From Paenibacillus ginsengihumi DSM 21568 (lineage in GTDB: Bacteria > Bacillota > Bacilli > Paenibacillales > NBRC-103111), in contig NZ_KB905565.1 in the NCBI RefSeq assembly GCF_000380965.1, positions 1 to 64,000 on the forward strand: 64,000 nt of DNA, read 5' to 3'. The stretch's first letter is position 1, and every line of letters starts with the position of its first letter. The position numbers and the translations under genes were made by a program. The notes under the pieces are model-generated. The model did no database searches and was not told the origin of the DNA. It saw only the letters and a program-made list of their open reading frames with translations. Of the stretch, positions 40,186 through 52,308 are shown piece by piece.

Positions 40186-42411
40186 TTACTCCTTCAGCCG
40201 CTCGAATGCGGCTTTCATTGCGTAGTAGCTTTGCTTCGGGCGCTCCTGATACTTCACTTCGTCCCACGGCTCCCATCGGTAATAGGGCAGCTCGGACACG
40301 CGGTAGGGAGCTTCCGGCGGTGCGGCTCCGCCCGTTTCTCTCCCGAGCCCGATCACTTGGCCGTCCCGAACGATCCACGGCACGAAGCGAATGCCTTCGG
40401 TCTCGACCGCCTCCAAGGGAGCCCCCGCAGTCTTTCCGTAGCTCATGACGTGCAGAGAGCTCGGATCGGTGAAGCCGAGCAGCATCCATGGAATACGCAG
40501 CTCCAGCGTCGTCCCCTGCAGCTGCCACATCGCGAGGGAATTGAACTCCGGAGAAGACGGGTCGGTGGTGCCGCGGGCCAGCTTGCCGGCGGGGACGTCC
40601 TCGAAGGGGTGATATTTTTTGGAATCGGGCGGGATGAGCTCCAGTCCGACGGCCAGCTTCCAGGGATTGAAGATGCCGGAATCGTCCTTCATCTCCTCGG
40701 GCTTCACCTCCAGCATGCCGTACTGGTGCCCGTACAACCGCTTATGGAAGTCGTAATTCGAGGCTATCCGCACTTCGCTCTCTTGATCATTGCCCAGAAC
40801 GACGAGCGTTTCCAGACCTTCGTCCAGCGTGCGGCCGCCAAGCTCTTTGCCGTGCCGGTTGCCGCCCGGAATCGTATCGGCTCCGATGTATAATTGCTCC
40901 CGCTGCGGATCGAACGGCTGCTCCAGCTCGGCCTTGATATAGACGTAAGCTTCGTCATGGGTAACCCAAATGTCCTTCCAGCCGGGATAATCGCCCTTCA
41001 GCCGCTGCTTCTCGCTTTCGTCCAGCGCCTCCCAGTCGTTGCCGCTGCCGTTGATCGTCAGCACGCCTTCCTTGCCGGCCAGCATGGCCAGGAGACCGAA
41101 ATGCTGTTCGTTCGTCAGCACATTATGCCACAGCTTGCGGCGGGCTGGCGGCATTTCGAACGCCATCGTATTCCACGTCCGCTTGAACCACTCGTCCTGC
41201 CAGGAGAAGACGATGGCGCCGGCCAAACCTTCCCGGTGAATGTCGTCCAGCAGCGACACGTCAATCTGCCCCTGCTCCGTTTCGTTATGGCCTCCCTGGT
41301 TCCGGTTTTTGTTGCCCAGGTGGGCGACGCCGAGCGAGGAGGGGACGCCGAATTCCGTAATCATCAGGGGAATTCCTTGATGATGCTCCTTTAATTTGCG
41401 GAGATAGCTGCGGTACGTGTTGATCTCGCCATCCTCGTCCTTGACATCGCGCACCGACTCGTCCAGCCGGAAGAAGTCGGGATAGTACGGATAAGCGTGA
41501 TAGGCGGCGAAATATCCTGCCGGCCAGTCGTGGACGGACAGGTGGAGCGCATCGACGCTGGCCATATCCTCTTCGATAAGCACCTCGCCGGGATGGGAGA
41601 GCGGGTCTGTCGTTACCCAATTGGTGAATGTCAGCGGATGCTTCCAGCCATGCTGCGCTTCCTGCACCGCCAGATGGTCCAGCATCTCGGCCAGCCAGTT
41701 CTCGAACGGATTCGCCTCGGGCTTCGACGAGATGTGCGTTCCTTGGTAGCCGATATTGTCCTTATGCAGCTCGTTGGTATTCCTCACCATAGCCGGGTCC
41801 CATTCGGTGCCGATATGCCAGGCGAGCAGATAGGGAGCGGCATTGGCGCGATAGGAGCCGCCGGCTTTGCCGAAGCGCTCCGGAATTTCCGCCGTACCGT
41901 ATACCGCGCCTACGGCGTAGCTGATTTCGCCCTGAAATTCGACATAAATCTCTTCCAGATATGCGTCCTGCTTCTCGATCAAAGCCTCCTCCGGCGACCA
42001 GATGCCCTGAATGAAATAAAGCGGCCGCTCCGGATGCTTCTGGTTATACTCCACCAGCGCCTCGTAGAACCAGGGCGGGAGGATCGTGTAGATCCGGATC
42101 GTATTGGCTCCCATATCGCTGATCAGCCGGAACCATTCGAGATATTTTTGCTTGGTGATCGGCAGCTCTCCGGGGTCCTCGCCCGGCAGCGCCGCGCCGA
42201 CGTTCACCCCTTTGACGAAGAAAGGGGACCAGGCGCCGTCAGCGTATATTTCAATGCGGTCTTCCTGCGTGCGAAACTTGATTTGCGAGCCGTCTGCCGT
42301 TGTGGCGCTCTCTACGGTGCTGACGGGCCAGTAGTGCCAGATGAGCGCCCCGATGACGGCGGCTGCGGCAAGCTTGATGGCCCAATGCAATGATGCGGAT
42401 CGTGTTCTCAT
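40186..42411 (-). CDS. membrane-anchored glycoside hydrolase-like protein of the EPS operon
   Basis: 741 residues: an N-terminal membrane anchor (IKLAAAAVIGALIWHYW), then a TIM barrel of the GH2/GH5 clan A type with candidate acid/base E203 (WHIGTEWDP) and nucleophile E353 (ITEFGVP), then a C-terminal beta-rich domain of about 280 residues with DOMON/CBM-like features (KDIWVTHDEAYVYIKAEL, LYIGADTIPGGN). It is the last gene of the sinR-like/glmS/HEAT/GT2/receiver operon, so it probably trims or releases the polymer at the cell surface, as BcsZ or PgaB-type enzymes do. AGGAGGG stands before the ATG. Confidence 0.82.
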   Translation of the reverse strand: MRTRSASLHWAIKLAAAAVIGALIWHYWPVSTVESATTADGSQIKFRTQEDRIEIYADGAWSPFFVKGVNVGAALPGEDPGELPITKQKYLEWFRLISDMGANTIRIYTILPPWFYEALVEYNQKHPERPLYFIQGIWSPEEALIEKQDAYLEEIYVEFQGEISYAVGAVYGTAEIPERFGKAGGSYRANAAPYLLAWHIGTEWDPAMVRNTNELHKDNIGYQGTHISSKPEANPFENWLAEMLDHLAVQEAQHGWKHPLTFTNWVTTDPLSHPGEVLIEEDMASVDALHLSVHDWPAGYFAAYHAYPYYPDFFRLDESVRDVKDEDGEINTYRSYLRKLKEHHQGIPLMITEFGVPSSLGVAHLGNKNRNQGGHNETEQGQIDVSLLDDIHREGLAGAIVFSWQDEWFKRTWNTMAFEMPPARRKLWHNVLTNEQHFGLLAMLAGKEGVLTINGSGNDWEALDESEKQRLKGDYPGWKDIWVTHDEAYVYIKAELEQPFDPQREQLYIGADTIPGGNRHGKELGGRTLDEGLETLVVLGNDQESEVRIASNYDFHKRLYGHQYGMLEVKPEEMKDDSGIFNPWKLAVGLELIPPDSKKYHPFEDVPAGKLARGTTDPSSPEFNSLAMWQLQGTTLELRIPWMLLGFTDPSSLHVMSYGKTAGAPLEAVETEGIRFVPWIVRDGQVIGLGRETGGAAPPEAPYRVSELPYYRWEPWDEVKYQERPKQSYYAMKAAFERLKE

Positions 42412-42441: not shown

Positions 42442-43269
42442 TCAGCCGAGCAGCCGGCGCACACGCGCATCGAGCTCGACCGGAGAGAACGGCTTTCTGA
42501 CGACATCGGCGGCGCCCAGCTCGAAGCAATGGCTGACTTCATGCTCCAGCCCGAGCTCGGTCAGCACGACGATGCGGCACTGCTCCCGGTATGGGGCCTG
42601 GCGGATGCGGCGGATCAGCTGGAAGCCGTCGAGCGCCGGTAGCGTCAGTTCGGTCATCACGATGTCGGGCTTCACTGATTCGATCAGCCGGAGCGCTTCC
42701 AGGCCGTCCTGCGCCGGATGCACCTCATAGCCCTGCATGCCGAAGCGAACGTTCAGGAAATCCATCAGATCCGCATTCGTATCGGCCATCACGATGGAAG
42801 GGGGGCGCTTCTCGGCAGGCTGCCGGTAGTAGAGCGCGATATCCTGCTCCTCTTCGCCGGGAGCACAGAAGCGGGCCAGCAATTCCCGGAATGCCGCAGG
42901 CTCCGGGTCGGCGCTTTCGGGAAAGCTGGCAACGACAAGCCTTCCGGCAAGCAGCCCGGCGTGGTGCAGATAAGCCTTGACCGACAAGGCCAAATAATGG
43001 GCGAAAGCGAGCGAGCACCCCGGCAGCGCCACGGTCAGCGCGCCGCTCGCGGCGTCATAGCTCGGCAGCGCGGTCAGGCTGGCGTCTTCCAGGCGCAGCC
43101 GCGCCTGAAGCTCCAGCAGCGCAGCGGCGCCGGGTTCGCGGGCATGCGCCAGGATTACCCCGCAGCTTTGCGACGCTTCGGCCGCGCGGGCCACCTGCTG
43201 CAGCAGCGGGCCGATCGGCCCTGCCCCCGGCTCTGCGGCCAGACGCGGGGCGGAAAATGTTGCTTTCAT
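42442..43269 (-). CDS. pseudo-receiver protein with degenerate GGDEF-like N-domain
   Basis: 275 residues. The C-terminal third (about 157-275) is a response-regulator receiver: IVMADTNADLMDFL, PDIVMTELTLPALDG, IVVLTELG and VRKPFSPVEL. The phospho-acceptor Asp is replaced by Glu (E207), and only one of the usual acidic pair (D163) remains, while T237 and K259 are kept. This suggests a receiver locked in an active-like state. Residues 50-120 look like a worn GGDEF domain (SYDAASGALTVALPGCSLAF), an inference from pattern only. AAAGGAG is 10 nt from ATG 43269. It probably regulates the synthase encoded upstream in the operon. Confidence 0.78.
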   Translation of the reverse strand: MKATFSAPRLAAEPGAGPIGPLLQQVARAAEASQSCGVILAHAREPGAAALLELQARLRLEDASLTALPSYDAASGALTVALPGCSLAFAHYLALSVKAYLHHAGLLAGRLVVASFPESADPEPAAFRELLARFCAPGEEEQDIALYYRQPAEKRPPSIVMADTNADLMDFLNVRFGMQGYEVHPAQDGLEALRLIESVKPDIVMTELTLPALDGFQLIRRIRQAPYREQCRIVVLTELGLEHEVSHCFELGAADVVRKPFSPVELDARVRRLLG

Positions 43270-43565
43270 AAGATCATCGCTCCTTTGGTCGGAAAATAAG
43301 ATTTGCGGGGGCAACGGCGGCGTTATCCGGCCCGGCCAAGGGCCGTTATGGGAGGAGACGTCCGGCAGCGGCTGCCCCGCAGAGGCGCCTCGCAGCGGCG
43401 TGCCGCCCACGGCCCTCGCAGCGGCGTGCCGCCACGGCACGTCTTTGCGGTACGCCGCCACAGCCGATCGCGGGCGATCCCCGCAGCGGCCCGGCGCTAC
43501 AGCCCCTCGCTACAGCCCCTCGCTGCGGCCCTCCGCTGCCGAAACGTTTCTTTCACGCCAGCCGG
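43270..43565. repeat. GC-rich spacer with tandem direct repeats inside the EPS operon
   Basis: CCTCGCAGCGGCGTGCCGCC occurs at 43388-43407 and 43414-43433 (26-bp period), with a weaker third copy near 43457. CGCTACAGCCCCT occurs twice near 43495. It encodes nothing recognisable on either strand. It separates the synthase from the receiver gene by 296 nt, while other operon gaps are 15-30 nt. Confidence 0.7.
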
Positions 43566-45023
43566 TTATCCGAGCGCCTGCGCCTTGGCCGCGTTGGATT
43601 CCGCCTTCTTGCCCGGACGCGGGTCGTCATTCCAGCTGCGCCGCACCATATGTCCCCAGCTGTTGCTCTTGCGGACATATTCCAGATGGCCCTGCAGCTT
43701 CCACCAGGCGTTGAGCTGATCGAAGCTGATGGCCATAACCGCAGACCAGCCGATCATTCGCCACATGTCCCGGGCAGGGGTTCGGTTCGGGAAGGCCAGC
43801 TCCTCCATAACCATGGAGCCGCAGGTGAACACCAGCCCGATCAGGACGTTCGCCGCGAGGAAAGCGAGCACGATCGGCAGGCGCGTCATATCCATCAGCG
43901 CGTAGAGGACGAGCGCGGCCAGCCCGGTGATGCGGATATACGGGCTTAACGTTTCGTACACGATCGTGTACGGCAGCGCCAGCCAGCCGATCACTTTATA
44001 TTTGGGGAGAAACAGCAGTCTCCTGAAGCGTACTACATTCCATACGGTGCCGCGAATCCATCTGCGGCGCTGGGCGCCGAGCACGGCGAGCGTCTCTGGT
44101 GCCTGTGTCCAGCACACCGCATCCGGGCAAAAGAGAATGCGGTAAGGCTTGCCGCGCTCGAGCATGTATTGGTGCAGCTTCATGACGATGTTCATGTCTT
44201 CGCCGGGGCAATCCTCCTCGTAGCCCCCGACCTCGATCAAATAATCTTTGCGGAACAGGCCGAAGGCGCCGGAGACGATGAGCAGCCCGTTCATGGAGCT
44301 CCAGCCGAGCCGGCCGCCGAGAAAAGCCCGCATATATTCCACATACTGCATGGCAGCAAGGGGATTGCGGGGCAGGCGGGCCTGAAGCACCCGGCCGTTC
44401 TCGACGACGCTGCCGTTGGCGATGCGCACATTGCCGCCGACGGCGATATGCTGCTCGGGGTTCTCCATGTACACCTTGACCATGCGGATCAGGGCGTCCT
44501 TCTCCAGAATGGAGTCGGCGTCGATGGTCGCCACGAGCGGGAAGCGGGAGACATTGATGCCGGCATTGAGCGCATCAGCTTTGCCGCCGTTGTCTTTGTC
44601 GATGACGACCAGCTTCGGATATTGCGGATTGCGATACACCTGCTTGACAGACTTGCAGGCGAGCAGCCGGCGAAACCCGGCCTGCCGGGAGCGGCGCAGC
44701 CCGAAAGCCTCGATCAGCACCTCGAGCGTCCGGTCACGCGAGCCGTCATTGACGACGACGACCTCATAGACCGGAAACTCCAGCGTCATCAAAGAACGGA
44801 CGCTTTCGATGATCGTCAGCTCCTCGTTATACGCCGGCACCAGAATCGAGACCGGAGGGACGTGCTCCGAGCCGGCCATCTCTGGGAAGCGGGAATGCGT
44901 CGAGCTCTTGAGCTGGGCCGTCATTCGCCTGCAGGATACCGCCATGATAAGCAGATACAGCAGGCCGGAGCCGGCGACCAGCCAGGCGGCCGTAATTCCG
45001 TAATACAGTAAAAAGTCTCTCAT
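43566..45023 (-). CDS. processive family-2 glycosyltransferase (PgaC/IcaA-like exopolysaccharide synthase)
   Basis: Membrane GT2 that polymerises a sugar from UDP-donor and extrudes the chain. N-terminal helix (residues about 6-28), then the GT-A domain: VSILVPAYNEE, VVVNDGSRD, KDNGGKADALN, TIDADS, the GED acceptor region (PGEDMNIV) and the Q-R-R-R-W processivity motif (GAQRRRWIRGTVWN), followed by four or five C-terminal helices. This domain order matches poly-N-acetylglucosamine synthases. An adjacent glmS points to an amino-sugar polymer. AGGAGAG precedes ATG 45023. A poly-Glc or hyaluronan-like product is the alternative. Confidence 0.88.
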   Translation of the reverse strand: MRDFLLYYGITAAWLVAGSGLLYLLIMAVSCRRMTAQLKSSTHSRFPEMAGSEHVPPVSILVPAYNEELTIIESVRSLMTLEFPVYEVVVVNDGSRDRTLEVLIEAFGLRRSRQAGFRRLLACKSVKQVYRNPQYPKLVVIDKDNGGKADALNAGINVSRFPLVATIDADSILEKDALIRMVKVYMENPEQHIAVGGNVRIANGSVVENGRVLQARLPRNPLAAMQYVEYMRAFLGGRLGWSSMNGLLIVSGAFGLFRKDYLIEVGGYEEDCPGEDMNIVMKLHQYMLERGKPYRILFCPDAVCWTQAPETLAVLGAQRRRWIRGTVWNVVRFRRLLFLPKYKVIGWLALPYTIVYETLSPYIRITGLAALVLYALMDMTRLPIVLAFLAANVLIGLVFTCGSMVMEELAFPNRTPARDMWRMIGWSAVMAISFDQLNAWWKLQGHLEYVRKSNSWGHMVRRSWNDDPRPGKKAESNAAKAQALG

Positions 45024-45046: not shown

Positions 45047-46267
45047 TCAGCCGGTCCGCCGGCGGTCTATATCGGGCTGGGCGGGCGGCTCTGCGCTGGC
45101 CGGCGCATACACTTCGCCAAGCACGCTTTGATAGATTCGGGACAGCCTGTTGAAATGCGCGGCGTGCGGCAGCTCACGGGCGGCGGCAGCGGCGGAGCGG
45201 TCCAGCTCCTGGCGGGCGGCTTCCCGGGCGATCTCCGCGGCGAGGACGTTCTCCCCGTCCGCGGCCGCCTCGCACAGCAGCAGGAAACCGTCCGGACCGA
45301 GCCTGGACAAGCCTCTGGCGCTGTAATGCCGCACCCACCAGCTGTCGTCCTTCAAGCCTTGCCGCAGTTCTCCGAGGAAATGAGGGCGCATGAGCTCGCC
45401 GGCCGCCTTGGCCGCCATGGCCCGGATCTGCCAATCGGGGTGGCGCATGAGCTGGGTCAGGCGTGCGGAAGACAGCAGATGGGGGGCAGCCAAAAGCAGC
45501 TTGGACGCTTTAATCCGCACCTCCTTGTGCCCGGACGCGAGCAGCTTCTCCAGCCTCGGATAGGCGGCAGGAATATAGCGGCTGCCGCTCAGACCAGTCA
45601 GCGCCAGCGCCGTCAGAGCCTCGTTCTCCGACTCCAGCAGCTTGGCATAGAACGGGATAAGGTCGAGAGACGAGGAGGCCAAAATATCGGCGATGAGCTG
45701 GAGGGAAGCGGGGTGCGTCCTGACAAGCTGCTCGGCCAGACGGTGCAGCTCGTCCGCATTGCGGGCGCACTTGGCGGCAGCCCGGGCCACGACGAAGGAG
45801 GTGCTGTCGCGCTCCCGCTCAAAGAGCGCCAGCAGCGGCTCGAAGCCGTCCGCGGCGCGCATGACGCCGAGGTGATACGCGGCATCGATGCGCACGCCGT
45901 GCTGGCTGCTGCCTAGCCGCCGCTTCTCCGCCTCGACCAAGCCAAGCTCGCGGCACAGCTCTGTCAGCTTGCGCCGCTGCGGCCCGCCGATCGTCTCGAT
46001 CCACTCCAGCAGCTTGCCGCGGATGGCCGCAAGCTCGCCTGGCTGAAGCGGCCCGGGAGGCTTCTGCAGCGGTTCCGGACGGTCGATGCTGGCGCTCAAA
46101 TAAGCGAAGTAGTCCCGCAGCCTGCTTAAGGAGCGGGCCCTCTCGGCCGCTGTCCGCGCGTGCCGCGCCCTGAGCGCCAGCAGCAGGGCGATGCCTCCTG
46201 CGGTCATGGCGGACAGCACTCCCAGCACGGCTACAACAGGCGTCAATTCGTCCATGGTCGACGGCAT
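45047..46267 (-). CDS. membrane-anchored HEAT-repeat protein of the EPS operon
   Basis: One N-terminal transmembrane helix (VVAVLGVLSAMTAGGIALLLAL), a charged linker, then about 300 residues of alpha-helical HEAT repeats (for example HGVRIDAAYHLGVMRAADGF, SLDLIPFYAKLLESENEALT, DWQIRAMAAKAAGEL, DSWWVRHYSARGLSRLGPDG). Such repeats form curved protein-binding scaffolds. Placed between glmS and the synthase, it may assemble or regulate the synthase in the membrane, replacing the BcsB- or PgaD-type partner. AAAGGAGG stands before ATG 46267. No enzyme activity is expected. Confidence 0.82.
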   Translation of the reverse strand: MPSTMDELTPVVAVLGVLSAMTAGGIALLLALRARHARTAAERARSLSRLRDYFAYLSASIDRPEPLQKPPGPLQPGELAAIRGKLLEWIETIGGPQRRKLTELCRELGLVEAEKRRLGSSQHGVRIDAAYHLGVMRAADGFEPLLALFERERDSTSFVVARAAAKCARNADELHRLAEQLVRTHPASLQLIADILASSSLDLIPFYAKLLESENEALTALALTGLSGSRYIPAAYPRLEKLLASGHKEVRIKASKLLLAAPHLLSSARLTQLMRHPDWQIRAMAAKAAGELMRPHFLGELRQGLKDDSWWVRHYSARGLSRLGPDGFLLLCEAAADGENVLAAEIAREAARQELDRSAAAAARELPHAAHFNRLSRIYQSVLGEVYAPASAEPPAQPDIDRRRTG

Positions 46268-46283: not shown

Positions 46284-48113
46284 TTATTCGACGGTCACGC
46301 TTTTCGCCAGATTGCGCGGCTTGTCCACGTCGTTTCCGCGCGCCAGCGCCGCATAGTAAGCGAGCAGCTGCAGCGGAATGGCGGCCAGCGCCGGAGACAG
46401 CAGGGCGTGGCTGCGGGGAACATAGACGACCCGATCGGCTGCTTTGGCAAGCTCCGTGTCCCCTTCGGGAGCGATGCCGATGACATAGGCGCCGCGCGCT
46501 TTAACTTCCTTAATATTGCCGATCGTCTTCTCCAGCAGCGAATCCTGGAGCGCAACTGCTACAACCGGCGTGCCGTCCTCGATCAGCGCCAGCGAGCCGT
46601 GCTTCAATTCGCCAGCAGGATAGGCCTCCGAATGAATATAGGACATTTCCTTCAGCTTGAGCGACGCCTCCAGCGCCGCCGCGTAATCGAGCCCGCGCCC
46701 GATGAAAAACAGATGCTCGCACCCGGCGATATTCGCCGCCAGCTCCTGCAGCAGGCCCGCCCCGGCCAGCGTCTCCCCGGCTTGCAGCGGCAGCTTCTCC
46801 AGCATGGCCAGCAGCTCCGCGCTGTCGGACGGGTCCATCGTCCCCAGGCGATCCGCGAGATAGATGGCGAGCAAATAAAGCGCGATCAGCTGAGACGTGT
46901 ACGCTTTGGTGGAAGCGACCGCGATCTCCGGGCCGGCCATCGTGAAGAGGACGGCGTCGGCCTCGCGGGCTGCGGAGCTGCCTACGACGTTGGTAATCGC
47001 GATGACGCGCGCGCCGAGCGTGCGGGCCTCCTTCATGGCGGCCAGCGTGTCCGCCGTTTCGCCTGACTGGCTGACGGCGACGACCAAGGTATGCTCGTCC
47101 GCGAGCGGAGAGCGGTAGCGGTATTCCGAAGCGACCTCCGCCTCGACCGGAATGCGCGTCAGCCGCTCGATGGCCGCCTTGCCGACGAGCGCGGCGTGAT
47201 AAGCGGTGCCGCAGGCGACCAGGTGAATCCGGCGGACCTGCCGCGGGTCGAAGCCTGACGCTTCAAGCTCGGGAAGAACGACGGCCTGCCGCCCGGAATC
47301 GATCCGGCCGCGCAGCGTATCCCGGAAGGCGCGGGGCTGCTCGTGAATCTCCTTCAGCATGAAATGCTCGTAGCCGTCTTTTTCCGCCATCGCCAAATCC
47401 CACTCGATGCGAAACGGCTGTCTGGCGATAAAATTGCCCTCCAGCGTCATCAGCTCGGCGCCGTCCCGGGTGAGCACAGCCATCTCTCCGTCGTTGAGAA
47501 TGTACACGTCGCGGGTATACTCCAGAATGGCCGGGATATCGGAGCCGATGAAATGCTCGTCCTCGCCGACGCCGATAATGAGCGGGCTGGCCCAGCGGAC
47601 GGCGATCAGCTTGTCCGGCTCATGCTCGGACAGCACCGCGATGGCGTAGGCGCCGCGGAGGCGGGCAACCGCCCGTCTCACCGCTTGCACGAGATCGCCT
47701 TCGTAATAACGGGCAATCAGATGGGAGATGACCTCGGTGTCCGTTTCGGAGACGAATGTGCAGCCGAGCGCTTCCAGCTCTTCCTTTAATGAAAGATGAT
47801 TCTCGATAATGCCGTTGTGCACGACGGATATTTTCGTCTCAATGTCCGTATGGGGGTGGGAATTGACGTCCGACGGCTTGCCGTGCGTCGCCCAGCGGGT
47901 ATGTCCGATGCCGGCGGAGCCGACCAGCGGCGCGTCTTGCAACCGGGACTCCAGCTCGCTGATGCGCCCCTTCGATTTGCAAATATGAAGTCCTTGAGCG
48001 GTATGTACCGCAACGCCGGCGGAATCGTATCCGCGATACTCCAATTTTTTCAGCCCGTTAAGCAATACGGACTGCGAATTTCGTTTGCCGATATAACCGA
48101 CAATTCCGCACAT
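46284..48113 (-). CDS. glmS: glutamine-fructose-6-phosphate aminotransferase (GlmS)
   Basis: Makes glucosamine 6-phosphate from fructose 6-phosphate and glutamine, the first step to UDP-GlcNAc. Class II glutaminase domain with Cys2 nucleophile (MCGIVGYIG), HTRWATHG, NGIIENH and a C-terminal double SIS isomerase domain (VACGTAYHA, SQSGETADT, GRGLDYAAALEASLKLKE, final KSVTVE). The 609-residue length is complete. It starts only 15 nt after the sinR-like stop codon, so there is no room for the glmS ribozyme that precedes the housekeeping copy in Bacillales. This implies a second, pathway-dedicated copy under the operon promoter. Confidence 0.95.
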   Translation of the reverse strand: MCGIVGYIGKRNSQSVLLNGLKKLEYRGYDSAGVAVHTAQGLHICKSKGRISELESRLQDAPLVGSAGIGHTRWATHGKPSDVNSHPHTDIETKISVVHNGIIENHLSLKEELEALGCTFVSETDTEVISHLIARYYEGDLVQAVRRAVARLRGAYAIAVLSEHEPDKLIAVRWASPLIIGVGEDEHFIGSDIPAILEYTRDVYILNDGEMAVLTRDGAELMTLEGNFIARQPFRIEWDLAMAEKDGYEHFMLKEIHEQPRAFRDTLRGRIDSGRQAVVLPELEASGFDPRQVRRIHLVACGTAYHAALVGKAAIERLTRIPVEAEVASEYRYRSPLADEHTLVVAVSQSGETADTLAAMKEARTLGARVIAITNVVGSSAAREADAVLFTMAGPEIAVASTKAYTSQLIALYLLAIYLADRLGTMDPSDSAELLAMLEKLPLQAGETLAGAGLLQELAANIAGCEHLFFIGRGLDYAAALEASLKLKEMSYIHSEAYPAGELKHGSLALIEDGTPVVAVALQDSLLEKTIGNIKEVKARGAYVIGIAPEGDTELAKAADRVVYVPRSHALLSPALAAIPLQLLAYYAALARGNDVDKPRNLAKSVTVE

Positions 48114-48128
48114 AATCGTTATTCCTCC

Positions 48129-48461
48129 TCATTCTGCGTTCCGGCTTTTATGCCGCTTCCGAACGGCGATCATGCTGCGCAGCTCCTCGCGGCTGATGCC
48201 GGAATCGAGCGCTTCGCTGAACAGCTCGTACCAGGCCTGCTTCGTCAGGGGGTCCGTCTTCTGCGCTTGCGGATAAACCAGTTCCTCCAGAGAAACCTCG
48301 AGAACGCCAGCGATTTTGGCGAGCAGATGGACAGATGGATTGGAATGAATGTCCCGTTCCATCGTGCTGAGATAGGACTTGGCCACACCTGCGGCTTCCG
48401 CCAGCTCGGAAAGCGACAGCCCCCTTTCCTTGCGCAGCTCCCTCACACGCTTTCCCAACAT
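48129..48461 (-). CDS. SinR/SlrR-like regulator, first gene of the EPS operon
   Basis: 110-residue paralogue of the SinR at 39.5 kb: Xre HTH (MLGKRVRELRKERGLSLSEL, AEAAGVAKSYLSTMERDIHS) and a SinI-type C-terminal segment (AWYELFSEALDSGISREELR). AAAGGACC precedes ATG 48461; a longer frame upstream lacks a ribosome binding site. It likely autoregulates the operon through the GTTCTYT boxes just upstream and may form mixed dimers with SinR or respond to SinI, as SlrR does in Bacillus. That last point is inference. Confidence 0.85.
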   Translation of the reverse strand: MLGKRVRELRKERGLSLSELAEAAGVAKSYLSTMERDIHSNPSVHLLAKIAGVLEVSLEELVYPQAQKTDPLTKQAWYELFSEALDSGISREELRSMIAVRKRHKSRNAE

Positions 48462-48575
48462 GTCGATCGGTCCTTTGCGTAAAATCTTGGGTTCCCGCAA
48501 AGCATAGGGTGGCCTTGCCAGCTTCGCCTCACTTTGTGGGGATGCACCGCATTCGAGCGATGGGCGCCAATCGTT

Positions 48576-48732
48576 GTTCTTTAATTGTTCCTTATAACGA
48601 ACGGACACAACGAAGTATACCACTTGATTCTGAAAATGAAAAATCCAATGAAAGGCATTTGTTTCGTTTTAGAGAACAAAAAACGCGGTTATTCTTCTTT
48701 TTTCGCCAAAATGCGTCGCAATGTTGTTCTTT
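48576..48732. promoter_or_regulatory. cluster of SinR-type boxes and the EPS operon promoter
   Basis: Sites matching the SinR consensus GTTCTYT: GTTCTTT at 48576-48582 and 48726-48732, GTTCTCT on the minus strand at 48677-48671. A dyad GTTCCTTATAACGAAC at 48587-48602 is a weaker match. The minus-strand promoter has an extended -10 TGGTATACT (-10 hexamer 48619-48614), so the first boxes sit at about +5 to +30. The 48726 box lies about 20 bp upstream of the plus-strand TATAAT (48753-48758) of the divergent UbiA operon. Confidence 0.65.
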
Positions 48733-48816
48733 ATAGTGAATATTCCATTCGTTATAATGAATGGCGTGACAGGCGCTCCCCGTCTGTTGACCCTTACCGA
48801 AAAAGGAGAATCGGTT

Positions 48817-49728
48817 ATGGATCCTTGGAAAGCGGATGTCAAAATTAAAGGAGGTGAGAGCAAAGCCTTTCCTCCTGCGGTCTTCCTGCAGCTGATGCGG
48901 CCCCGGCAATGGAGCAAAAATGTGCTTGTCTTCGCAGCGCTGATTTTTTCCATCCGCTCCGCCGACCTGTTCATGCTGGGGCAGGCCGTGATCGGGTTTG
49001 TGCTGTTTTGCCTTGTTTCGAGCTGCGTGTATATTTTGAACGATTACGTCGACCGGGAGCGGGACCGGCTGCATCCGGAGAAGAAGAACCGGCCGCTGGC
49101 TTGCGGGGCGATTAACCCCCATGGGGCTTTGCTGTGCGGTCTCGTGCTGCTGGCCGTCTGCCTCTGGTTCGCCTTCCGGTTCCATCTCGCGTTCGGCGGA
49201 GTGCTCGCGCTGTATTTTGTGCTGAACGTCTTATATTCCTTGCGGCTTAAGCATATCGTAATTGCCGACGTGCTTGTCGTTGCGCTGGGATTCGTGCTGC
49301 GGGCCGTCGGCGGCGGACTGGTGATCGATGTGCCATTGACCCCTTGGTTCCTTCTGTGCACCATGCTGCTGGCGCTGTTTCTGGCGATCGGCAAGCGGCG
49401 TCACGAGCTGTATTTGCTGCAAGCGGATCAAACGGCGCACCGCAAGGTGCTGAAGTATTATTCCATGGAAATGCTGAATCAGATGTCGGCGATCGTGACG
49501 ACGGCTACCATTATGAGCTATGCTCTGTTCACGTTTACGTCGGGCCGTTCCGTTCATTTGATGTGGACCCTCATTTTCGTGCTGTACGGGATGTTCCGCT
49601 ATTTGTATCTCATTCATATGGAAGGCAAAGGCGGGCGGCCGGAAAAGGTGCTGCTGGAGGACAGGCATATTTTGCTGACGGTCGTGCTGTACGGTTTTTC
49701 CGTCGCCTTCATATTGCTGTATTTATAA
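48817..49728 (+). CDS. UbiA-family prenyltransferase (decaprenyl-phosphate phosphoribosyltransferase-like)
   Basis: Polytopic membrane enzyme (about eight or nine helices, 303 residues). The first Asp-rich motif reads NDYVDRERDRLHPEKKNRPL and the ends LMRPRQWSKNVLVFA fit the subgroup of Mycobacterium Rv3806c, which joins phosphoribosyl pyrophosphate to a polyprenyl phosphate, rather than ubiquinone or menaquinone synthases. AAAAGGAGA precedes ATG 48817. It is the first gene of an operon with a small flippase-like protein, a PAP2 phosphatase and a GT-C transferase. The -10 TATAAT (48753) sits next to a SinR-type box. Confidence 0.85.
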   Translation: MDPWKADVKIKGGESKAFPPAVFLQLMRPRQWSKNVLVFAALIFSIRSADLFMLGQAVIGFVLFCLVSSCVYILNDYVDRERDRLHPEKKNRPLACGAINPHGALLCGLVLLAVCLWFAFRFHLAFGGVLALYFVLNVLYSLRLKHIVIADVLVVALGFVLRAVGGGLVIDVPLTPWFLLCTMLLALFLAIGKRRHELYLLQADQTAHRKVLKYYSMEMLNQMSAIVTTATIMSYALFTFTSGRSVHLMWTLIFVLYGMFRYLYLIHMEGKGGRPEKVLLEDRHILLTVVLYGFSVAFILLYL

Positions 49729-49744
49729 CTCGGGGAGGAACCGC

Positions 49745-50107
49745 ATGATCTTGAAGTATTTGTGGCTGGCCGCTTCGATCGTGCTCGGAGCCGCCGGACA
49801 AATATTAATGAAATGGGGCGTCGAATCGCTGCAGCTGCGGGGCATGCCGTCGTTCTCATGGTCCGGCCTTGCGACATTCGCCCCGGTGGCGGCGGGACTG
49901 GCGAGCTACGCACTCAGCTCCGTGTTCTGGCTGCTGGCGCTGCGGCAGTTTCCGCTCAGCACGGCTTATCCGATGGTCAGCCTGAGCTACATTATCGTCA
50001 TGATTTGCGGCAGCCTGTTGTTCCAGGAACCGGTCTCGGCCCAGCACTGGTTCGGCGCGGCGTTCATTGGCGTCGGCGTGCTGCTGATCGCCCGGGCGGG
50101 AGCATGA
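49745..50107 (+). CDS. small EamA/SMR-type membrane protein (ArnE-like flippase candidate)
   Basis: 120 residues with four transmembrane helices and the pattern of single-domain EamA/SMR proteins (AAGQILMKWGVESL; FWLLALRQFPLSTAYPMVSLSYIIV; FGAAFIGVGVLLIARAG). In ArnE/ArnF such proteins flip undecaprenyl-phosphate aminoarabinose across the membrane. Its place between a polyprenyl-phosphate pentosyl synthase and a GT-C suggests the same job; a drug exporter is less likely. GGGGAGGAA precedes ATG 49745; the gap to the upstream gene is 16 nt. Confidence 0.8.
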   Translation: MILKYLWLAASIVLGAAGQILMKWGVESLQLRGMPSFSWSGLATFAPVAAGLASYALSSVFWLLALRQFPLSTAYPMVSLSYIIVMICGSLLFQEPVSAQHWFGAAFIGVGVLLIARAGA

Positions 50108-50147
50108 GGTCAGCCGGATTCAGAATGAAGCGGGAGGAAAGAAGCCG

Positions 50148-50582
50148 ATGGAGCTATTTCCAGGACTTATATATCCGGCGTTGCCTGCGGCGGCCTGGTT
50201 CGCGTCGGGCACGCTGAAATATGCCGTCAACCGGGTTCGCTACGGCCGGAGGGCCAACGAACTGATCGGCAATGGCGGCTTTCCGAGCACGCACACCTCG
50301 ATCGTCGCCTCCATGGCGATGCTGATCGGCTTCGATCAAGGCTGGGGCTCGCCGCTATTCGGCCTGGCGGTTGCCGTCACGTTCATCGTCGTGATCGATG
50401 CGCTCGGCATTCGCCGGGCTGTCGGCGAGGCAGCCAAGCGGATCAACGCGCTGTCGGCCGGGCTGGCAGCAGGGGCGGAGACGGCACGGCTGCGCGAGCG
50501 GCAAGGGCATACGCGCCTCGAGGTGCTCGGCGGCCTCGGCGTCGGATTGGCGCTCGGCTGGGCGGGTTCGCTGCTGCTCTGA
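50148..50582 (+). CDS. divergent PAP2-family phosphatase (DUF212, YuiD-like)
   Basis: 144 residues with the family's motifs GGFPSTHTS (about residues 43-51), IDALGIRRAVGEAAKRIN and RQGHTRLEVLGG and several membrane helices. In mycobacteria the PAP2-type Rv3807c removes the 5-phosphate from decaprenyl phosphoribose. A similar dephosphorylation of the UbiA product fits this operon. GGGAGGAAAG stands before ATG 50148. Gap to the upstream gene 40 nt. Activity has not been shown for DUF212 members in general. Confidence 0.82.
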   Translation: MELFPGLIYPALPAAAWFASGTLKYAVNRVRYGRRANELIGNGGFPSTHTSIVASMAMLIGFDQGWGSPLFGLAVAVTFIVVIDALGIRRAVGEAAKRINALSAGLAAGAETARLRERQGHTRLEVLGGLGVGLALGWAGSLLL

Positions 50583-50619
50583 CGCTGCAATATTTAGAAG
50601 AATGTGGGGAGAAGGCCGA

Positions 50620-52308
50620 ATGAGCAATCGTTTTGCTTCGATCAGTTATGTGGCCGGAATCGCGCTATTGTCGCTGTGCGCCGGCTGCTTTCTCGTGCCG
50701 ACGCTCTTGTTCGCGTGCGGCATTCCGATCCTGCCGCTGCACCTGTGGCTGGCGGCTGGCCTGGCGCTCGCCACGGCCTGGTTCGCTGCGCGGGAGAGAT
50801 CCGGCAGCGGGGAAGCTGCGGCGGCGGGCAAGCTTTTCGCCGCAGGCCTGGCGGCAGCGGCGGCGATGTTTGCCGTCTGCTTTGTCGTCAGCGGCTGGTT
50901 CTATGATTTGTCTTACGATGGACAGGCGTATCACCAGGAATCGATTTTACACTTGGCCGGCGGGTGGAACCCTGTGTACGACGGCGCGCTATCGCTGCCA
51001 ACAGGACATGCCCTGTGGGTTAACCATTACGGGCGAGGGGGAGAGACGGCCGCGGCTGTGCTGTTCAAAGCGACCGGCCTGATTGAGCACAGCAAGGCGC
51101 TGAACGCGCTGATGATCACCGCCTCGTTCCTGCTCAGCGCCGCCGCCCTGCATGCGCTGAAGCCGGATAAGCCTTTCCGCTGGCTGGCGATCGCTATGCT
51201 GCTGGCGCTCAATCCGGTAAGCGTCTATCAGGTGTTCAGCTTTTATGTCGACGGCCTGATCGCTTCGCTGCTGCTGTGTCTTCTCGCACTCGGGTTGCTC
51301 ATGGTTACCCGGATGTCGCCGGTCACCGCCATCGTTTATACGGCGGGGATGATATGGACGATGAATATCAAATTTACGGCGATAGCCTATGCCGGGCTCG
51401 TTACGATCGGTGTTTTGGCCGCTTTGTATATGAGCGAGCAGTTCGCGGGCGTAAAGCGGCTGCTTAAGTTCGCGGCAATCGGCGGCATCGCAGGGGTGCT
51501 GCTGTTCGGCTACAATCCTTTTGTGACCAATACGCTGAACAACGGCCATCCGTTCTATCCGCTGGCCGGCGAAGGGGCGATCGATGTCGTCGAGAGCTTT
51601 ACCCCGCGCAATCTGGAGACGATGAACCGGGCGGAGCAGGCGGTCGCCTCCTATTTTGCGGAGACGCGGGAAAACAGCACCGAAAAAATCCGCACAAAAT
51701 TCAAATGGCCGTTCACGTTTAGCGCCCGGGAGCTAAGCGCGTTCGCCGAGCCCGACGTGGCGGTGTCCGGCTTCGGGCCGCTGTTCAGCGGAGCGCTGCT
51801 GCTGTCGCTGGCCGTCATGGCGCTGGCCTTCCGCCGCCGCTTGGGATGGGCGCTGATTGCCGCCGGCGTCATGGGCTGGCTCGTTTTCTCGGCCTTGATC
51901 AATCCGGGGGTTTGGTGGGCGCGCTATGTGCCGCAGCTGTGGTTCGTTCCGCTCGTGGCGGCCTGGCTGGGCATCAGCCTGCCGGAAGGACGGCTCGTGC
52001 GCGGCGTGAGCTGGGCGCTTGTCCTGGTGCTTGCCGTCAATGCGCTGCTGGTCGGAGGGGCATATACGGTGAGGCAGACGCAGTGGAACCAGACGCTGCG
52101 GGAACAGCTGGCTGTGCTCAAGGCTTCGCCCGGACCGGTTTCCGCCGATTTCGCCTACAGCTGGTCCAACCGCGAACGGTTCCGTGCCGCCGGCATCGCG
52201 TTTAAGGAGGAGGAGCTCGCCTGCGGGCAGGACGACAAGCTGACGCTGATCAAGTCGGGCACGACGGTTTGCCTGGGCCCGGGGAGCGGCAGCGCTCAAG
52301 CGGAATAG
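50620..52308 (+). CDS. GT-C type membrane glycosyltransferase-like protein
   Basis: 562 residues, about twelve predicted helices, with a large first external loop bearing the motif YDLSYDGQAYHQE (D-G in loop 1 is typical of polyprenyl-phosphate-sugar dependent GT-C enzymes) and a C-terminal extracytoplasmic region. It should transfer a sugar from a flipped polyprenyl-phosphate donor to a surface acceptor. GGGGAG is 8 nt from ATG 50620; earlier in-frame starts lack a site. It ends the UbiA-EamA-PAP2 operon. The acceptor is unknown; the EPS made by the divergent operon or a wall polymer are candidates. Confidence 0.8.
   Translation: MSNRFASISYVAGIALLSLCAGCFLVPTLLFACGIPILPLHLWLAAGLALATAWFAARERSGSGEAAAAGKLFAAGLAAAAAMFAVCFVVSGWFYDLSYDGQAYHQESILHLAGGWNPVYDGALSLPTGHALWVNHYGRGGETAAAVLFKATGLIEHSKALNALMITASFLLSAAALHALKPDKPFRWLAIAMLLALNPVSVYQVFSFYVDGLIASLLLCLLALGLLMVTRMSPVTAIVYTAGMIWTMNIKFTAIAYAGLVTIGVLAALYMSEQFAGVKRLLKFAAIGGIAGVLLFGYNPFVTNTLNNGHPFYPLAGEGAIDVVESFTPRNLETMNRAEQAVASYFAETRENSTEKIRTKFKWPFTFSARELSAFAEPDVAVSGFGPLFSGALLLSLAVMALAFRRRLGWALIAAGVMGWLVFSALINPGVWWARYVPQLWFVPLVAAWLGISLPEGRLVRGVSWALVLVLAVNALLVGGAYTVRQTQWNQTLREQLAVLKASPGPVSADFAYSWSNRERFRAAGIAFKEEELACGQDDKLTLIKSGTTVCLGPGSGSAQAE

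Follow-up and report, generated by a model that had tools for sequence, protein, structure and literature searches.

A four-gene cassette for putative lipid-linked ribosylation next to an exopolysaccharide locus in Paenibacillus ginsengihumi

Which sugar might Paenibacillus ginsengihumi DSM 21568 carry outward on a lipid, and on which glycan would it be placed? The question is raised by four genes at positions 48817-52308 of a 64,000-nucleotide stretch of its genome (assembly GCF_000380965.1, contig NZ_KB905565.1, positions 1 to 64,000 of the forward strand; hereafter the window). A preliminary description of the DNA had taken these genes as a module for synthesis, dephosphorylation, flipping and extracytoplasmic transfer of a lipid-linked phosphoribose. 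The coordinates and motifs given there were right, and our analysis supported the four predicted steps. It is quite probable that the cassette encodes a pathway in which a pentose is linked to a lipid, flipped and transferred by a GT-C glycosyltransferase, the acceptor being a separate matter. The family and substrate residues of the UbiA protein, the fold of the GT-C protein, the gene order and the linkage can be read from the sequence. The evidence comprises sequence, structure prediction and gene neighbourhood, and every functional step is inferred from these.

In the proposed mechanism, UbiA would transfer ribose-5-phosphate from phosphoribosyl pyrophosphate (PRPP) to undecaprenyl phosphate. 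A DUF212 phosphatase, probably acting at the cytoplasmic face, would strip the 5'-phosphate, an EamA/SMR-like protein would flip undecaprenyl-P-ribofuranose outward, and the GT-C protein would move the ribofuranose onto an already exported glycan, as an inverting enzyme forming an alpha linkage if it behaves like GT136. The likeliest glycan would be the polymer of a divergent operon with a PgaC-like GT2 synthase, under a SinR-like regulator.

Donor synthase and GT-C glycosyltransferase

The first gene, ubiA (48817-49728, + strand), encodes a predicted polyprenyl-phosphate phosphoribosyltransferase of the decaprenyl-phosphoryl-phosphoribose (DPPR) synthase type, with 303 amino acids and containing NDYVDRERDRLHP. 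The genome encodes three UbiA-superfamily proteins, and that of the cassette passes both NCBIfam models named decaprenyl-phosphate phosphoribosyltransferase (NF008977, 269.8 bits, cut-off 234; NF008978, 214.9 bits, cut-off 207). Its best solved relative, PDB 8j8j, was deposited under the same name (E 3e-39). Cryo-EM of Rv3806c identified R22, N73, D77, K87, R90, Y138 and K143 as Mg/pyrophosphate ligands and K28 and Y70 as 5'-phosphate ligands (PMC10994848). These nine PRPP-contact residues are kept in the cassette protein, as R28, N75, D79, K89, R92, Y140 and K145 and as K34 and Y72, and are invariant in 16 homologues. Other UbiA enzymes do not share the phosphoribose sites (PMC10994848), so the retained ligands point to PRPP as donor beyond what the family name says. 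By eye, the RPxQWxKN and VYxxND contexts were not present in the heme O synthase-like and 4-hydroxybenzoate-type UbiA proteins of the genome. By family membership and substrate residues, the cassette UbiA is assigned as a polyprenyl-phosphate phosphoribosyltransferase, as had been proposed.

The UbiA superfamily is broad, and a Pfam UbiA match alone is silent on substrate; the protein might then be an ordinary aromatic-acceptor prenyltransferase, with unrelated lipid-recycling and transport genes as neighbours. We regard this as highly improbable, since the DPPR-specific models and the PRPP 5'-phosphate ligands are satisfied and the GT-C partner recurs across phyla. An aromatic acceptor for UbiA was itself rejected because of the PRPP-contact residues.

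The fourth gene, gtC (50620-52308, + strand), encodes a GT-C glycosyltransferase of 562 amino acids (YDLSYDGQAYHQ), a putative polyprenyl-P-ribose:polysaccharide ribofuranosyltransferase. Its Pfam search matched no family and its PDB sequence search returned noise only, so a fold search was needed. The AlphaFold2 model (pLDDT 87.1, pTM 0.90) gave only borderline E-values with Foldseek alone. Against ArnT with undecaprenyl phosphate (5f15) it scored Z 17.5 over 391 residues at 6.0 A, the ArnT alignments spanning 391-398 residues, and lower matches were AftD (Z 15.1), AftA (11.8) and AftB (10.3). Z values of about 13 can arise among helical proteins. Together with the borderline Foldseek values, this makes ArnT the match to rely on. 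The predicted structure has a GT-C fold with acidic residues, D96 and D100, in the first external loop (YDxSYDGQxYHQ). In that loop D96, D100-G-Q, Y104 and H105 are invariant in 25 homologues, in agreement with the D-G loop motif described earlier, and so is WWARYVP (R435-Y436) before a late helix. Residues that GT136 needs include D31, E34, H106 and R349, and Y35 and Y350 matter as well (PMC11127046). The D100..Y104 spacing and R435-Y436 of the cassette protein resemble D31..Y35 and R349-Y350 of GT136, a motif analogy that is a lead only.

Putative phosphatase and flippase, and gene order across genomes

The two genes between ubiA and gtC encode the remaining candidate activities. A small EamA/SMR-like protein with four transmembrane segments (49745-50107, + strand; 120 amino acids) is the putative flippase for polyprenyl-P-ribose. 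It belongs to Pfam EamA (33.7 bits, cut-off 28.2), so the EamA part of its earlier description as ArnE-like stood, but ArnF fitted better than ArnE (81.4 versus 52.4 bits). By the cut-offs of those models it is not a family member, and it would resemble ArnE/ArnF only in how it works. Next to it lies the putative polyprenyl-P-ribose-5-phosphate phosphatase (50148-50582, + strand; 144 amino acids). Its earlier assignment as PAP2-type was borne out for the divergent PAP2 family DUF212 (103.4 bits, cut-off 26.5; 1.3e-29), but not for classical PAP2 (20.5, cut-off 27.2). PSxH (H49), D84, R89R90 and H121 of this protein are invariant across 13 homologues. All four cassette genes lie on the + strand, separated by 16-40 bases, and a purine-rich sequence resembling a ribosome-binding site precedes each of the four starts. 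Synthase, putative flippase and GT-C protein, the three components that mark pentofuranosylation systems, are thus encoded together.

Conservation of the four-gene order, proposed as a check in the preliminary description, was examined in 104 family genomes (one per species) and in 77 loci from named genomes. The named loci overlap the family genomes, and the two sets of counts are not independent and are uncorrected for phylogeny; gene names in distant neighbourhoods were mostly assigned by eye. The GT-C protein was found in 31 of the 104 family genomes. Type I cassettes (ubiA-eamA-pap2-gtC) occurred in 28 genomes, with the full order in 26 of the 28 loci; one exception was without DUF212 at a contig end and the other had a broken GT-C and DUF212. 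In Paenibacillus sp. P25 (L063, G078) the GT-C gene and its neighbours are in pieces, perhaps through decay or through an error in sequencing. A second type was present in five family genomes, three of them without type I, with the order ubiA-eamA-gtC-pap2 in four complete loci; in the fifth (L066), the contig ended with no DUF212 found up to that point. The named loci showed the four-gene order in 44 of 77, from Paenibacillus, Gordonibacillus, Aneurinibacillus, Brevibacillus, Pelosinus and other Sporomusaceae or Bacillota metagenome-assembled genomes. The others include ubiA-eamA-gtC (Desulfobacula, Desulfobacterales) and ubiA-gtC (Bacteroidota), and in about 19 of 77 UbiA was not recognised beside GT-C. 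Recurrence of the order in many genomes rules out a chance arrangement. A 398-genome sample of the phylum yielded just three more GT-C matches, one of them weak and partial, so the GT-C family is uncommon across the phylum as a whole.

The partners of the constant UbiA and GT-C pair change between groups. In Bacteroidota, UbiA-GT-C is succeeded by a HAD phosphatase in place of DUF212 (PF12710, 116-126 bits in the three loci tested), and in these three loci the gene before the pair encodes GtrA (84-94 bits) in place of EamA. Desulfobacterales retain EamA, and a HAD protein follows in place of DUF212. A single phosphatase and a single small protein of flippase type, both of changing fold, accompany the pair, and these exchanges provide the best evidence here for a DUF212 phosphatase and an EamA flippase. 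We consider it very probable that the DUF212 protein acts as the polyprenyl-P-ribose-5-phosphate phosphatase, and probable that the EamA/SMR-like protein is the flippase. The HAD form is of a soluble cytoplasmic type, so dephosphorylation before flipping would be the simplest order.

By eye, polysaccharide clusters of Paenibacillaceae that carry dTDP-rhamnose (rml) genes or an ABC exporter also contain the UbiA, EamA and DUF212 trio, next to other large GT-C-like membrane proteins. A trio standing beside differing GT-C-like proteins is the pattern expected of a donor-making unit. UbiA, usually with EamA and DUF212, was seen in polysaccharide clusters at loci L181, L182, L183, L184, L187, L189 and L190. 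In Parapedobacter koreensis (L154), four GT-C paralogues surround one UbiA, GtrA and HAD phosphatase, which suggests several acceptors for one donor. In Brevibacillus, a phosphoribosyltransferase-like gene (L125) or pyrE-pyrF-carB-carA (L127), by eye PRPP-linked nucleotide enzymes, lies 3' of gtC.

The transferred sugar and known counterparts

Neither DprE1/DprE2 nor any other oxidase/reductase or epimerase pair was found in the conserved cassette neighbourhoods, where the DprE1 search used a distant DprE1-like protein (L035) as query. With no DprE1/DprE2 linked, ribofuranose is the likely default sugar, as had been suggested from the bare locus, and the transferred sugar is more probably ribose than an epimer. 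The earlier statement that no DprE1/DprE2 is nearby holds for the locus, and one distant, unlinked DprE1-like protein was found in the genome. This protein is among four FAD_binding_4 proteins, the others being one GlcD-like (inside the window), one weakly GlcD-like and one MurB. It is a flavoprotein with an N-terminal hydrophobic segment, encoded on another contig (C1:142888-144402 of the same genome), and it was seen in 44 of 104 family genomes.

The same pathway could instead deliver D-arabinofuranose or D-xylofuranose by means of an epimerase encoded elsewhere. Homologues of DprE1/E2 or ORF13 are found where arabinofuranose or xylofuranose is made (Kelly et al., PMC11127046), and the genome does encode L035, whose best NCBIfam model is DprE1 and which matches PDB DprE1 at 1e-21. 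Its score of 115 bits, however, is far under the DprE1 cut-off of 500, with a good match over the N-terminal half only. It is unlinked to the cassette, its orthologues occur in 13 of 28 cassette genomes versus 28 of 76 others (p 0.5), and no DprE1-like gene was found in any cassette neighbourhood searched. A true DprE1 in this genome was ruled out on the low score and on a presence that does not track the cassette, and we consider transfer of an epimer unlikely.

The type of pathway is known. The preliminary description had regarded surface ribosylation in a spore-forming Firmicute as new, and as an idea this was not supported: Kelly et al. 2024 (PMC11127046) characterised, at the biochemical level, systems in which UbiA, a flippase and a GT-C attach alpha-ribofuranose or xylofuranose. 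They also pointed out that the phosphatases of Mycobacterium and Pseudomonas are separate, and listed candidates from gram-positive bacteria, among them one from Bacillus. What is new is the spore-former version and its proposed coupling to an exopolysaccharide (EPS) polymer. The pathway and the default ribose of the preliminary description were retained; it had not taken in the divergent EPS operon, the paralogous donor trio or the exchange of phosphatase and flippase.

For the alpha-ribofuranose side chains of Citrobacter, the synthase and the GT136 transferase were shown biochemically and a MATE flippase was proposed (PMC11127046). Citrobacter youngae O1/O2 (ORF15 synthase, ORF14 MATE flippase, ORF12 GT136; PMC11127046) resembles the P. 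ginsengihumi cassette in its PRPP-dependent polyprenyl-P-ribose synthase, in having a separate flippase and GT-C, and in adding the side chain after polymerisation. There, however, a HAD domain is fused to the synthase, whereas here the candidate phosphatase is a separate DUF212 protein; the flippase is MATE rather than EamA/SMR; no C-terminal carbohydrate-binding domain was seen in our GT-C model; and the acceptor is an O antigen, in contrast to what is probably a GT2 synthase-type EPS of a gram-positive spore-former. The mycobacterial decaprenyl-phosphoryl-arabinose pathway (Rv3806c, Rv3807c, DprE1/DprE2, Rv3789, Emb/Aft) shares the UbiA homologue with its conserved PRPP site, a 5'-phosphatase, a small SMR-type flippase and GT-C transferases. 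It differs from the cassette, whose conserved neighbourhoods are without linked DprE1/DprE2, whose candidate phosphatase is Pfam DUF212 and not classical PAP2, and whose single GT-C belongs to another sequence family. The aminoarabinose system (ArnT/ArnE-ArnF) is near in the GT-C fold, ArnT being closest, and in an SMR-type flippase related to ArnF. Its donor, however, comes from a UDP-sugar via ArnC/ArnD instead of PRPP and UbiA, and P. ginsengihumi has no lipid A.

The divergent EPS operon and the probable acceptor

Upstream of the cassette and divergent from it, on the - strand, lies a gene set that is syntenic in almost all type I loci and that we read as a synthase-dependent EPS locus. 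Nearest is a SinR/SlrR-like regulator (48129-48623; HTH_3 2.5e-16) with a weak SinI-type C-terminal match (0.002), which scores 76 bits with the NCBIfam SlrR model against a cut-off of 250. Here and in several relatives, its gene separates the two divergent operons. A glmS-like gene (46284-48113, named by eye), a conserved neighbour in most relatives, would encode a glucosamine-6-phosphate synthase, which might provide precursor for a polymer of hexosamine. It is followed by a HEAT-repeat membrane protein (c2; 45047-46267; HEAT_2 6.5e-12), which served as the marker of the EPS locus, and by a GT2 membrane synthase (c4; 43566-45023), the putative EPS polymerase, with DxD, GED and QRRRW motifs by eye. 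This synthase reached 149 bits with TIGR03937 (PgaC) against a cut-off of 422, and BcsA structures at 1.8e-10; it is therefore PgaC-like but not PgaC itself. Next come a receiver-domain protein (c6; 42442-43461; Response_reg 8.8e-20) and a membrane-anchored glycoside-hydrolase-like protein of 741 amino acids (c3; 40186-42411). A PDB sequence search with c3 gave no match, and its clan GH-A-like barrel came from the model (pLDDT 74.3), a TIM barrel nearest GH157 (9g4n, Z 28.5) and, at a Z of about 24, similar to GH5 and GH2. Its glutamates E203 (GTEW) and E353 (TEFG) are invariant in 15 homologues and appear to sit where clan GH-A enzymes have theirs. The gene set resembles PgaC/IcaA and other GT2 EPS operons in the processive PgaC-like GT2 and the extracytoplasmic glycoside hydrolase, but here the GT2 is below the PgaC cut-off, the HEAT protein and a response regulator replace PgaA/B/D, and a pentosylation cassette is linked.

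The HEAT marker was present in 43 of 104 family genomes. It occurred in all 28 type I genomes versus 15 of 76 others (Fisher 8e-15), a value that ignores shared ancestry and so overstates the link. The dependence runs strictly one way: 28 genomes have both, 15 have the EPS locus only and 0 the cassette only. In Aneurinibacillus the cassette and the EPS unit lie within ~5 kb in a different arrangement, and linkage kept despite rearrangement is harder to explain by inertia. On balance we lean slightly towards the EPS polymer as acceptor.

An alternative with nearly as much weight is that the cassette ribosylates another acceptor (a wall polymer, an S-layer or spore glycan, or a lipid) and that its adjacency to the EPS operon is inherited synteny. 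Conserved gene pairs within one family often reflect ancestry rather than function, and the Brevibacillus and Pelosinus cassettes lie away from a recognisable EPS locus; the one-way dependence and the Aneurinibacillus linkage speak against this alternative, as do the paralogous trios, which sit in polysaccharide clusters too.

Taken jointly, these results allow a tentative reading in which a SinR-type-regulated matrix EPS of Paenibacillus and its relatives receives ribofuranose after export from a dedicated cassette, with DUF212 as the phosphatase and the GT-C protein as a new family extending from Bacillota to Bacteroidota and cyanobacteria. Several observations count against the proposed mechanism. 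In UbiA, the ribose ligand Q135 of Rv3806c is N137, and Y157, a minor 5'-phosphate ligand, is F159, F also being found in some mycobacteria. The EamA protein is under both NCBIfam cut-offs (ArnF 99, ArnE 92), and a literature search on DUF212 phosphatases found none reported with polyprenyl-P-ribose-5-phosphate activity. The sugar could also turn out to be a different one if L035, or an epimerase that escaped recognition, takes part. The cassettes of Brevibacillus and Pelosinus have no EPS locus near them, so the acceptor need not be the EPS polymer, and other glycans are possible. Literature searches returned nothing on point for Paenibacillus EPS with ribofuranose, for a DPPR-type synthase in Paenibacillus, or for Paenibacillus pgaC/HEAT EPS loci.

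If the tentative reading is true, lipid-linked ribosylation also reaches biofilm polymers of the synthase-dependent kind in spore-forming bacteria of soil, the four genes offer a compact system for testing the substrate of DUF212 phosphatases, and a donor can be assigned to a GT-C family that has no Pfam model. The cassette would also be a handle on which Paenibacillus matrix polymers carry pentofuranose, a sugar that in composition analysis alone may pass for nucleic-acid contamination.

Among minor features, the cassette has a candidate sigma-70-like promoter (TTTATA-17-TATAAT, 10/12 matches) upstream of ubiA, at 48730-48758 on the + strand; the promoter scan was at chance level (3 sites versus 1.9 in shuffles), as was the terminator scan of the locus. 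Most relatives have a second copy of c3 3' of gtC, which is not in this window. In most relatives, either this second copy of c3 or gtC is adjoined by a conserved, secreted-looking protein of ~300 amino acids without a Pfam match (c7; L050:13252-14187 and homologues).

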